Origin: Salminus brasiliensis
Taxonomy: Eukaryota; Chordata; Actinopteri; Characiformes; Bryconidae
Length of the DNA stretch: 64,000 nucleotides
NCBI RefSeq assembly: GCF_030463535.1
Contig: NC_132888.1
Span: 8,351,581-8,415,580 of the forward strand
Direction of reading: 5' to 3'
Under the pieces are notes generated by a model that saw nothing but the letters and a program-made list of their open reading frames with translations, had not been told where the DNA came from and did no database searches. Of the stretch, positions 41,112-64,000 are shown piece after piece (positions within the stretch are counted from its first letter, which is position 1; every line of letters starts with the position of its first letter). A program made the position numbers and the translations under genes.

Positions 41112-41912
41112 TCAGTGCATGCTGAGGGACTGCTGAAACCCTGAGCACTGCAGGTAACCCTGCTGCCAAGGGAACGGCACAGCAGAAGCATCCACAAAGC
41201 AGTCCATGTGGTCCTGATGGCAAGTTGCCTTGAAACCGTAATGATAACTAGTGGCTCCTCCATAGTGTGACTGAGCTAGGTCCTCCTGAGGGTGACCATA
41301 GTGTCTGTGGGTCATGTATGGCTGAGGACTTTGACTGTAGTGAGGGGAAGGAGCAGGGTTTACAGATCCATCCTGGAACATCTGCATCTGAGGAGACACC
41401 ATATGTTGATGGGGGCTCTGGCTCTGGCTGTAGTTCGTTGGTTGGTCCATGAACCCTTTGGATGCTGCAGAACTCGGCTCCTTGTCTTTTAGTCTTGTCC
41501 TGCACTCAGGATGACCACAGGATGAGGTTTCAGCTCCTAAAAGCATGGACAGTGCTGATATGCGGTGGATGGCCCTGCGGAGAGTCGCAATCTTCGACAA
41601 GCGCTTGCCGTTCAGGTCATGCTTAAGGGTCGTGCGCAAAGCATTGAAGGCCTGATTGTAATCCAGGATCCGTTTGCGCTCCCGGACATTGGCTGCAACC
41701 CGCCGGGCTTTGGAACGAGGAGGCCGGCTGCGCTTCTTAGCAACTCTGGACATCTCGGCCTTGCTGGCCCGAGGTCCACCATCGCTTTCTGATGCAGGAG
41801 GTGATCCCTTCAGTGGTTCTTCACTGCTGCTGTCTTCTCCCAGGCCCAGTGGACAACTCTCTTGCTCATCCTCTGAGAATTCCGATTCTGTGCTGGTGCT
41901 GGACATGCTCAT
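41112..41912 (-). CDS. bhlha9: Class A basic helix-loop-helix protein 9
   Basis: This is a single-exon transcription factor of 266 residues. Residues 1-50 are acidic and Ser-rich. A basic stretch rich in Lys/Arg (59-71) leads into the bHLH domain at about 70-124. The DNA-binding basic part reads [13 protein letters not shown], with the E-box-contacting Glu at 78. Helix 1 is [14 protein letters not shown], the loop is KHDLNGK, and helix 2 is [25 protein letters not shown] motif (132-137) follows and resembles CGHxEC in mammalian BHLHA9. The C-terminal half is Gln/His/Ser/Tyr-rich and ends with a WQQGYL block, again similar to the mammalian end. In vertebrates BHLHA9 acts in the nucleus of limb or fin bud ectoderm. 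Human duplications around it are linked to split-hand/foot malformation with long-bone deficiency. The ATG at 41912 has A at -3 and is the first after an in-frame stop at 41928-41930. A second ATG is at 41906. The length exceeds human BHLHA9 (about 235) but fits a fish orthologue. The identification is strong and no splice signals interrupt the frame. Confidence 0.95.
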
Positions 41913-42095
41913 GTTTAGTAGAGCAACTCACCACGTTGAGCAAGACGACTGCGAGTGATGTGCCTTTGTGTCAAGTAGGTTGGGTCCACCAAACACCACA
42001 GAATCTTAAGCAGCGACTTCTTAGGTTCTCACCATCTCAGAATCCTCCCTCGTCTGCGGTTCGACTCACTTTGGCTCTGCCGGGACGAAAGGTGC

Positions 42096-44665: not shown

Positions 44666-46098
44666 GTGAGAAACTGCGTAAATGGATTTTAAGAAGGCTA
44701 AGGCTGACAAGTAAGTCTCAACGCTATAGAAGAACCACTTTTCCCAATGCATGACCGTTACTCAAAAATATGACTCCCACCGACAGCACAATGAATGCTC
44801 TTCAAACAAGCTGACAACCATCTTCAGGCCCTTCTGCTGAAGCGAAGGACAGTTAATGTACAGCATTTTATTTACCAGCATGCTTGATAGTTAGATTCTA
44901 ACCATTTCTGGTTAATTGAGTCATAACATTAAATAAAAAATGTCTTTTTATCTGCTGTTTATCTTCAGAAACTGTCTATTCTATTTGGACAAAAGTATTG
45001 GGACACATGCTAATTTGTGAGAAACTGCGTAAATGAATTTTAAGAAGACTAAAGCTGGCGAATAAGTCTCAAAGCTATAGAAGAACCACTTTTCCCAATG
45101 CATGGCCGTTATTTAAAAATATGACTCCCACTGACGGCACAATAAATGCCCTTGAAACAAGCTGACGACCATCTTTATCCCCTTCTGCTGAAGCGAGAGA
45201 GTTAATGTACAGCATTTTATTTACCAGCATGCTTGATGGTTAGATTCTAACCATTTCTGGTCAGTTGAGTCATAAAATTAAATAAAAAGTGTCTTTTTAT
45301 CTTCTGTTCATCTTCAGAAACTGTCTATGTTATTTGGACAAAAGTATTGGGACACATGCTCATTTGTGAGAAACTGCATAAATGGATTTTAAGAAGGCTA
45401 AGGCTGGTGAGTAAGTCTCAAAGCTATAGAAGAACCACTGATCCCAATGCATGGCCGTTACTCAAATATGATTCCCACCGACAGCACAATGAATGCTCTT
45501 GAAACAATGTTTAATGACCCCAAGCTATGCTTATGACCTCGATTCGACCTACCAGAACAGCCAAACCTTACCTTGCTTACTTAACATCTCTTCAGCTTGG
45601 AATTATTGCTTTCAGGTTCCTTCAAACACTAATTTACAACCTTTATCTGAAAGGCTGTGGCTCTGAGCTATTACAAATAGCCCGCCATTCCATGAGGCTG
45701 TGTGTAAAAGTGAGAAGGGCACTGGTCAAGACAGGTATCCCCTCGTAATGAGAGTGGTTCTCTTTGTTCTTGCAGCAGCGAGGCCTGCTTTATGAGGAGC
45801 AGGGCCGCAGCCAAGCCTGGAGCTATGGCATCTAAGCCCAAAGATCATATCAGCCAAGTGAGTGGTGGGGCTATAGCACTTAGATACTGGATGAGAGGTC
45901 ATTTCAGACATTGCTTCCTTCCTTCCCACCTTTTTTAGTGCTAGCCACTGAGAGGCTGATTAGGAGCTGACGATCATCTTCAGTCCCTTCTGCTGAAGAG
46001 AAGGAGAGTTAATTGACGGCATGTTTTTTTTTTACCAGCATGCTTGATAGTTAGTTGAGTGTCTTTTTATCTTCAGTTTATCCTCAGAAACTGTCTAT
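44666..46098 (+). repeat. Tandem array, about 350-bp unit, with insert
   Basis: The unit begins GTGAGAAACTGCGTAAATGG at 44666, 45017 and 45366, giving periods of 351 and 349. Each of the first two units ends with a MITE-like TTTGGACAAAAGTATTGGGA terminus. The third unit is broken at about 45507 by 458 bases of unrelated DNA and resumes at 45966 (CTGACGATCATCTTCAGTCC). It then runs into a complete M1 MITE at 46099. The break between units lies about 40 bases inside the MITE end. Confidence 0.9.
45776..45857 (+). other. Exon-like segment with splice-site motifs
   Basis: A pyrimidine-rich TTCTCTTTGTTCTTGCAG precedes 45776, and CAA followed by GTGAGT ends at 45857. This makes an 82-base segment with strong acceptor and donor motifs. 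One frame is open throughout and reads SEACFMRSRAAAKPG, then AMASKPKDHISQ. I recognise no protein. It lies inside the 458-base insert of the tandem array. It could be chance or a captured exon. Confidence 0.25.
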
Positions 46099-58719: not shown

Positions 58720-58840
<121 letters not shown>

Positions 58841-59014: not shown

Positions 59015-60023
59015 TTATAAGGACCTAAGAGTGAAAGGAAAAAGGTCTAGAAACAGGCCTATATTTGACTGCTTTAAACAATCCACAACTATTTCACTAT
59101 ATCATTTTAGCCATTTGGCCATTTTAGCCTTAACAATGGTGTGGAATGTACCACATTTCCGTTATGACACACTGTCAGGTATAACGAATATCATTTTTGT
59201 GATCAGATCAGAAATGTGATTTATTTTTACAGCTATACAAAAATCCCTCTCAGTGTTTCTCAGGATGTGCATTAGCAGCCCCAAACTCTCTTCTCTCAAA
59301 CTGTTCGAGAGCACTGACTGCCCTCCTCTGGCAAACTAGAGACAATACAGCGTCCTCTCTAAGTGCTCCTCTAAACCATAACAAACCATGGAACATGAAA
59401 ACAGTATCAACAGTGGGTCAAACAGCTGTGCACACACATGTAGGCGTTTAGTACTGAAGGGTTTCATGGGAAATAAGCTGGATATAAATACCAGCAGGAT
59501 GCAGTTTTTTTTTTACTAATAATAAAAATGATCGACTCTGCTGGACTATGGAAACTATATATTAGATACACTGTATATGGACCAACCTTTTACAGGTCAG
59601 TCTTCAGCTTCATGCTTGTGAAGTCACCGCTTTGAGTCTCATTCATGGGTGTTACCATAAACCACAACAACTTCCTCTCGTCCCCTGCAGAGCCCTTTAG
59701 GTTACATGGTGGTTGTTTTTAATAAGATGTGGCCAATAAAGCATATATTAAGGCTACAGTACTATATTACCTTGTGTCTTGAGATATTATTTCATGGCCT
59801 CCATATCCCAGCTAACATCTCCATGTGGGGCCTCTATGGGTAGCCCAACTTGTTGACCCCACTGTTCAGGGTCAGTTTTTCTGGGCCCGGTTTTCTCAGC
59901 ACGGTTATCTAAGCATATTCAGGGCTACAGAATCGTTCTGTGGGAGGGCTTAGTGAACAGATCCACGACTGGCTCCATATTTGGGTCATACTGAGTCTTT
60001 ATATTTCCTATAAGTACAAAGAT
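59015..60023. other. Unique intergenic DNA
   Basis: No gene is recognised. A T9 run lies at 59505-59513. Confidence 0.5.
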
Positions 60024-61839: not shown

Positions 61840-63175
61840 ATAATAAAAGGTTGTTAATTGTTTATTAAATATGGGGAACTGTTTATGAAATGGAGAGAAT
61901 GGATTGTTATATCAAAAGGACGCTTTATTAAACGGAGTAAACAAATTATTATACTTATGGAACAGACTGCTTACCTGAGGGGATTTTTCTTTAAATAAAG
62001 GAATGATTTATTGTATAAAGGGTAGGATTTTATTTTTTTGATGAGGGAATGATTTATTAAATGAAGAGAGCAGATTATTATAGCGGGGGGGGGGGTTATT
62101 AAATCAGGGGAACAATTTATTAAATCAGGGGAACAATTTATTAAATCAAGGAAACAATTTATTAAAGCGGGGGGGGGTTATTAAATCAGGGGAACAATTT
62201 ATTAAATCAGGGGAACAATTTATTAAATCAAGGGAACAATTTATTACATCAAGGGAACAATTTATTACATGGGGGAACAATTTACTACATGGGGGAATTC
62301 TTATTAAATCAAGGGAACAGTTTATTAAACCGAGGGATTTTTTATTAAATTGGGATAACGATTTATTAAATCAGGGGAATGATTTATTAAATCAAGGGAA
62401 CAATTTATTAAATCGGGGGAATTCTTATTAAAGCGGTGGGATTTTTATTAAATTAGGGGAACAATTTATTAAATCAAGGGAACAATTTATTAAATCAGGG
62501 GAACAATTTATTAAATCAAGGGAACAGTTTATTAAATCAAGGGAACAATTTATTAAAGCAGGGGAACAATTTATTAAATCAAGGGAACAATTTATTAAAT
62601 CAAGGGAACAATTTATTAAATCAGGGGAACAATTTATTAAATCAAGGGAACAATTTATTAAATCAAGGGAACAATTTATTAAAGCGGGGGGGGGGGTTAT
62701 TAAATCAGGGGAACAATTTATTAAATCAAGGGAACAATTTATTAAATCAAGGGAACAATTTATTACATCAAGGGAACAATTTATTAAAGCGGGGGGGGGG
62801 GTTATTAAATCAGGGGAACAATTTATTAAATCAAGGGAACAATTTATTAAATCAAGGGAACAATTTATTACATCAAGGGAACAATTTATTACATGGGGGA
62901 ACAATTTACTACATGGGGGAATTCTTATTAAATCAAGGGAACAGTTTATTAAACCGAGGGATTTTTTATTAAATTGGGATAACGATTTATTAAATCAGGG
63001 GAATGATTTATTAAATCAAGGGAACAATTTATTAAATCGGGGGAATTCTTATTAAAGCGGTGGGATTTTTATTAAATTAGGGGAACAATTTATTAAATCA
63101 AGGGGACAATTTATGAAACCGGGGAAATGGTTTACTAAATTGGGGGAACAGATTATTAAATCAGGGGAACGATTT
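61840..63175. repeat. 21-bp minisatellite with higher-order duplication
   Basis: The unit is GGGAACAATTTATTAAATCAA and variants. From 62085, runs of 11, 9, 11 and 11 G replace a unit start (62085, 62169, 62686 and 62791). Spacings of 84 and 105 are multiples of 21. The block 62164-62480 recurs at 62786-63104 with a shift of 622-624. Because 21 divides by 3, a minus-strand frame of 158 codons (INCSLDL repeats) stays open. It is not a gene. Confidence 0.97.
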
Positions 63176-63229
63176 ATTTAATTATTTAATTATTTCATAT
63201 TTATTAATTATGTAATAATGTTTATTATA

Positions 63230-64000
63230 TTTAGAAAAAAAGAGCTCTAAACATCATTTTTTCCACCGGTTTTAAACATCATTTACCTTGATACTTTCCT
63301 TGATAGTCTCACTCCAGCTCATATCTGCATGTATTTCTGATGCTCGAAACGCCGCCCAGGCAGAGCTGGATTGGGCATCGCCAATGTCTCCACTTCTGCC
63401 CTGCTGCACTACAACCCCCCTCCGGCCGGGCACGTTTACTCACTCGCTCCCTGCGCTCTTAAATGGAGGATCGGCCCTCTGTAGGGGCGACGATTGCGAT
63501 ATATTTCACCCCCGGAGCAGAGAATGGGTCAGGTCGGTCGAAATTATCGGTGAACAATGATCAAAGCTGCTGTCAGCTCCAGGACGAGGAAACGCAGACG
63601 AAGAAAACAGGTTGGTGGAATGCAATGTAATCCAATGCTGTGTAGCGGTGGCAGATCCAGGTTCAGAAAGTCGAAATCCGCTCCGGGATTTTGCTCCGAC
63701 TGCCTGGACGGCTCCGCCGCGCGGAGCCGTCCAGGCAGTCGGAGCAAAATCCCGGAGCGGATTTCGACTTTCTGAACCTGGATTTCGGTTAGCTCGCATG
63801 TTAGCTCCTATTAACTTCATTAAACTCCAAATATCGACACGCAGTCGCTTGCATTAGGGACTGTACGCACATAGGAGTACCGTGACTTGCCGGTCGGCTG
63901 TGTTTTGGCCATTGATTGATGACTGCCGTCGACATTTGTGCAGCTTTGGTAGCCGGCTGTCGTGCTGTGTATATGTAAGCTGCCTGGCTAGCAAAGTGTG
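63230..64000. promoter_or_regulatory. CpG-rich region, possible promoter or first exon of next gene
   Basis: After 63 kb of AT-rich DNA, the stretch from about 63345 to 63960 is GC-richer with many CpGs (GCCGCC, CGCCGCGCG, CGACG, CCGGTCGG). It is the kind of region where a vertebrate gene starts. No confident coding exon is seen, and the window ends before one could be confirmed. In mammals the bhlha9 neighbours are ABR and the TUSC5/YWHAE side. Which gene would start here is unknown. Confidence 0.4.
63655..63783. repeat. Perfect 63-bp-arm hairpin with 3-base loop
   Basis: The left arm 63655-63717 and the right arm 63721-63783 are exact reverse complements over all 63 bases, with CGC as loop. 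The arms begin ATCCAGGTTCAGAAAG. Complementarity stops at once outside the arms. It sits inside the CpG-rich region and is itself GC-rich in its inner half. Confidence 0.98.

Follow-up and report, generated by a model that had tools for sequence, protein, structure and literature searches.

The perfect 63-bp inverted repeat in the window (the whole 64-kb stretch of DNA analysed here) is one copy of a dispersed palindromic, MITE-like DNA element, probably an old insertion whose arms would have been re-templated in place by hairpin template switching. We give this joint reading a probability of roughly 0.7. Palindrome instability is the subject of a review (PMC7999016); long perfect palindromes should not last, yet many are present in this genome. 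The perfection of the window copy is best explained by later arm-to-arm copying, with template switching as the likeliest mechanism.

Results

The palindrome and its surroundings

The initial annotation had described a 63-bp inverted repeat with a CGC loop in a CpG-rich setting. The repeat is exact, with 63 of 63 positions of the two arms complementary, and the setting is borne out by a CpG island. The features referred to below are as follows.

63251-63930, no strand: CpG island around the element (GC at least 50%, CpG observed/expected at least 0.6)
63617-63787, no strand: 171-nt stretch absent between the two matching parts of the related sequence P0001, similarly in P0003
63643-63654, plus strand: left terminal end TAGCGGTGGCAG, agreeing with the family end CARNGGTGGCRA at 9 of 11 scored positions
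63655-63717, plus strand: left arm, 63 nt
63718-63720, no strand: loop CGC, 3 nt between the arms
63721-63783, minus strand: right arm, the exact reverse complement of the left arm
63784-63795, minus strand: expected site of the right terminal end, agreeing at just 4 of 11 scored positions

When the 64-kb window was simulated ten times under a first-order Markov model, the longest perfect arms were 9-13 nt (loop of at most 29 nt), which excludes a chance origin of the 63-nt arms. The predicted fold of positions 63640-63800 has an energy of -147.1 kcal/mol as RNA and -91.8 kcal/mol as DNA, and neither value was equalled by any of 200 shuffles. The only other perfect palindrome in the window with arms longer than 15 nt (loop of at most 29 nt) is a perfect (AT)n run of 83 bp at 58722-58804, which is trivially palindromic (arms of 41, no loop) and has an (AC)n run next to it. 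No second copy of the palindrome arm was found elsewhere within the 64-kb window, and an Rfam scan and a tRNA scan of the whole window gave no match. Searched as exact patterns against viral and genome contigs, pieces of the arms matched a single bacterial contig, a match read as chance, with flanks unlike the element, and otherwise nothing. Megablast of the palindrome sequence against E. coli genomes gave no match, translated arm pieces joined as one query matched no protein, and the matches listed by a literature text search for words of the arm sequence were judged unrelated.

The CpG island is the second longest of eight such stretches in the window; in 4-kb blocks before position 60000 the CpG observed/expected ratio is 0.23-0.42. 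Directly left of the island lies a minisatellite (62096-63182) in which a 21-bp unit recurs about 52 times. Beyond the right edge of the window, the NUFIP2 coding ORF (L050:3136-4938, plus strand; Pfam PF15293, E 2.8e-237) begins some 3.2 kb to the right of the palindrome. Possibly, the island is the promoter or first exon of this plus-strand gene. Taken together, the island and the NUFIP2 exon about 3 kb rightward make a promoter setting of the palindrome plausible, as far as sequence can indicate. A Pfam scan of six window ORFs found one with a match, and an exon scan of the window gave four weak candidates. A bHLH gene consisting of a single ORF (41115-41927, minus strand; Pfam PF00010) presumably resembles bhlha9. 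A tandem repeat at 44666-45507 has 2.4 copies of a 349-bp unit with 90% matches.

A dispersed family of palindromes

The window's own genome (1,066,335,885 bases, 103 contigs) was searched with positions 63600-63840, and the best 40 of 82 first-look candidates were scored. This query gave at least 80 matches at 40 places, the window's own among them. All 39 of the 39 other places matched on both strands, which makes every one of them a palindrome, whether perfect or decayed. Identity to the window palindrome over the matched part is 73-88% at these loci. Additional places came from queries with two near-perfect copies, L021 (23 new places; best 40 of 220 candidates scored) and L078 (18 new places; best 40 of 400), and with the decayed copy L018 (25 new places; best 40 of 418). 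The resulting sample comprises 105 fetched copies and the window copy, 106 in total, with two partial pieces beside fetched copies omitted; sampling followed similarity to four selected copies and was not random. L067 and L036 each have another copy of this element, a partial one, close by.

The family element is palindromic and about 145 bp long, has ends near CARNGGTGGCRA and shows the arm consensus CAGAGGTGGCAAATCCAGGTCCAGAAAGTAAAAATCCGCTCCRGGATTTTGTTCCAACTGCCTGGGCGGCTCTGCTG. As in MITEs, short copies with terminal inverted repeats are dispersed, here over 106 places. Judged from the numbers of first-look candidates, the family probably has several hundred copies. No paper on this palindromic family was among the matches listed by a full-text literature search.

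Target duplications and terminal ends

Arm distances were calculated over 65 aligned positions in the 106 copies, and copies with arms at most 4% apart are called near-perfect. Far above chance level, the 8 bases left of the 12-nt end equal the 8 bases on the right. When a jitter of 2 was allowed, at least 7 of 8 bases matched in 9 of the first 40 copies, compared with 1.03% of 1,560 controls. At a fixed offset the same level was reached in 8 of the 39 near-perfect copies and in 7 of the 43 copies with arms more than 16% apart, compared with 0.036% of 11,130 cross-copy controls. When 46 of 60 copies were scanned more widely, 12 duplications were detected, with 1.49 expected. A minority of copies therefore carries a target duplication of fixed length, 8 bp, as MITEs do. 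An 8-bp target duplication is a mark of hAT elements, and members of the hAT superfamily have short ends starting near CA-G. The duplication seen here is of the hAT length, and because of these 8 bp we infer that the element was moved by a hAT-type transposase.

Both ends are kept, at a cut of 9/11, in 8 of 39 near-perfect copies and in 9 of 43 copies with arms more than 16% apart; copies with both, one or neither end number 8, 21 and 10 in the former and 9, 24 and 10 in the latter class. At its left outer end, L019 has a short direct duplication of AATCCAGG, such as a misplaced template-switch return might leave. In the window copy no 8-bp target duplication was detected, either with a jitter of 2 or in the wider scan. 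Since its right end matches the family end at 4 of 11 positions, this end has been lost or overwritten.

The gap in related sequences

Used as a protein query, a minus-strand ORF through the palindrome led to P0001, one of nine candidates at E of at most 1, and P0001 in turn to one further sequence, P0003. Both are known here as translated ORFs alone, apparently chance reading frames across this same non-coding DNA in other organisms. Both match the window at 63616-63360; a second, weaker match lies at 63929-63788 for P0001 and at 63898-63812 for P0003. The second match scores 51 in both sequences, and the maxima of 60 shuffles each were 36 and 38. Because the two matches of P0001 adjoin, the stretch 63617-63787, which consists of the element and 26 nt to its left, is without counterpart there. 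An unsplit alignment also reaches weakly into the palindrome and raises the downstream score by 21 for P0001 and by 5 for P0003, below the 51 of the split reading. The gap may instead be a loss in the lineage of P0001 and P0003.

Arms of near-perfect copies resemble their own partners

The arm distances fall into two groups, with 36 copies at 0-2%, 3 at 2-4%, a single copy at 4-7% and 66 above 7%. With so few copies at 4-7%, one-step resets are a better fit than base-by-base repair. In all 39 near-perfect copies the nearest arm is the copy's own partner, the nearest other copy being 5.3-15.6% away; the own partner is nearest in 46 of the 106 copies overall. The window copy has identical arms, its 1.6% distance lying entirely in loop columns, and its nearest other copy is 10.8% away. 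When arm partners were permuted among the first 60 copies, the observed mean distance was never reached (0/20,000).

Departures from the consensus in the 39 near-perfect copies affect both arms in 312 cases, one arm in 20, and differ between the arms in 3. Most of the symmetric changes are common to several copies and are therefore not independent events. In the near-perfect copies of the first 60, only one symmetric change is a base absent from every other arm. Under a very strict criterion, no 14-mers were present in both arms yet private to one copy.

Partial tracts were also found. The inner 45 bp match, with at most one unmatched position, in 47 of the first 88 copies, and the outer arms (33 bp) are unlike in 27 of these 47. 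With a cut-off at the 98% level of 175 flank pieces, both outer arms are element-like in 8 of the 27, one in 16 and neither in 3. Five of the 8 (the window copy, L019, L054, L057 and L080) differ mainly in the terminal part; L025, L045 and L084 have clearer partial tracts, the second arm of L025 being doubtful. Hairpin self-templating predicts tracts of this kind, beginning at the centre and ending abruptly.

Near-perfect copies do not look young

The two copies of a target duplication are identical at insertion, so that the duplication serves as a clock for the element. In the near-perfect copies with a duplication of at least 6/8 (11 of 39), mismatches amount to 11/88 in the duplications versus 7/713 in the arms (P 2.6e-7), and with at least 7/8 required to 5/64 versus 4/518 (P 0.0012). 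In copies with arms more than 16% apart, of which 11 of 43 have a duplication, the values are 13/88 and 177/702; this age comparison omits the 24 copies with arms 4-16% apart. These 11 decayed copies have mismatches all along, 24-38 per palindrome against the own reverse complement, and some others among the 43 combine an inner tract that matches with outer arms that do not. Duplications are retained about equally, in 11 of 39 near-perfect and 11 of 43 decayed copies. Because their duplications differ as much as those of decayed copies, the near-perfect copies do not look young.

The contrast varied among the three sets of copies. In set 1 (first 60 copies), mismatches were 6/40 in duplications versus 3/325 in arms (P 7.9e-5). 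It had been predicted before set 2 (28 held-out copies) and failed there, with 1/24 versus 2/194 (P 0.3, not significant) and two of the three duplications at 8/8. In set 3 (last 18 copies) it held at the same thresholds, without a prior note, with 4/24 versus 2/194 (P 0.0015). In the pooled copies, though not in set 2 alone, the arms resemble each other more closely than the age of their locus would permit. As the contrast in set 2 is not significant, some near-perfect copies may be young; L063, L074 and L078, with near-perfect arms and 8/8 duplications, may be such cases. In general, perfect arms do not mark young insertions. The mismatch of the outer ends was dropped as an age clock; L074 and L078 have perfect duplications yet unlike ends. 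The history of the window copy is read from its relatives because it is without a duplication, and just 11 of the 39 near-perfect copies keep one.

These data bear on an unlikely alternative, in which a perfect hairpin is synthesised afresh from one arm by fold-back at every transposition, as proposed for Angel, copies afterwards only decay, and perfect arms mark a young insertion. Such a model has been published for zebrafish Angel, as described in excerpts of PMC12628747, and it explains symmetric changes and perfect arms equally well. It would fit L063, L074 and L078, and insertion by local homology could account for the fact that most near-perfect copies are without one end or the duplication. 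Against it, the duplications and ends of near-perfect copies are as worn as those of decayed copies, and L045 and L084 have identical inner arms with outer arms that have diverged yet are still element-like.

Weaker alternatives

Selection for a hairpin RNA or a cruciform, which would keep the arms paired, is highly improbable. The stable predicted fold and the location in a CpG island speak for it; against it stand the lack of an Rfam match in the window, the arms more than 16% apart in 43 of 106 copies, and arms that are identical, more than just paired.

Even less credit can be given to a single template switch that turned unique promoter sequence into a new palindrome. Perfect arms, a tiny loop and the missing target duplication of the window copy agree with such an event. 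The window query alone retrieved 73-88% identical palindromes at 39 other loci, and the left arm runs on into the terminal end of the family. As an origin, the single switch is refuted by the dispersed family and survives only as a route of arm refreshment. One branch of the initial annotation took the repeat to be very recent, by fork template switching; template switching stands as the likeliest cause of arm identity, and the remainder falls, since the palindrome belongs to a dispersed element as one of its copies and was not made new from unique promoter DNA.

The other branch of that annotation, an assembly or library fold-back artefact, is practically negligible: the palindrome is known here from assembled sequence alone, but its flanks are unlike on both sides and, in one assembly, 39 of 106 loci are near-perfect palindromes that differ from each other.

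Discussion

For the preferred reading, an old element with arms rewritten in place, we propose the following course. After insertion, during replication or repair, one strand would fold into a hairpin, on which the polymerase would copy one arm from its partner, beginning at the centre, before returning at some variable position to the template it had started on. With every event of this kind the arms would become identical again, and the ends, or in some cases an entire outer arm, would be left unlike. The copied tract of the window copy would extend to the arm end, with the right terminal end and any target duplication gone; the right end was presumably lost in such a template-switch event. 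As the mechanism we infer template switching at the hairpin, in preference to mismatch repair inside an extruded one. On balance, we consider it fairly probable that the old insertions, probably hundreds, form a standing record of hairpin template switching, in which decay would be followed by a one-step reset from the centre outward, with 39 of 106 copies near-perfect at a given time.

If the arms are rewritten in place, the family would be a natural reporter of the frequency, reach and end points of template switching at hairpins in a vertebrate germ line, and the perfection of a palindrome would be unusable for dating an insertion.

The family shares with hAT-type MITEs the 8-bp target duplication and short ends starting near CA-G. 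Unlike in hAT-type MITEs, the whole element is one palindrome. Angel is a palindromic zebrafish MITE in which, as in the window family, the arms stay paired though copies differ. In the model of Izsvak et al. for Angel (1999, J Mol Evol 48:13-21), as relayed in excerpts of PMC12628747, the nascent strand folds back, recopies the element, is released as a hairpin and inserts elsewhere; Izsvak et al. are also cited in PMC2872659. Angel and the window family are both short elements able to fold back on themselves. Compared by description only, the Angel model has an extrachromosomal hairpin before insertion, whereas the duplications of the window family suggest that much arm copying takes place after insertion.

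In a 2026 survey of the human genome, the longest perfect arm reported measures 140 bp (PMC13155455). Template switching makes the arms of inverted repeats identical in yeast coding genes (PMC8604942) and also occurs at RNA hairpin stems (PMC8794818; see also PMC7954356). According to the portions of these reports used here, the yeast and RNA systems have in common with the window family that one arm is overwritten by its partner in one step, which results in a perfect repeat. They differ in scale: the yeast arms are 7-16 bp (PMC8604942) and the largest switch pattern in the RNA work is up to 59 bp (PMC8794818), shorter than the longest tracts of the window family, a single mobile-element family that shows matching stretches of 45-70 bp again and again.
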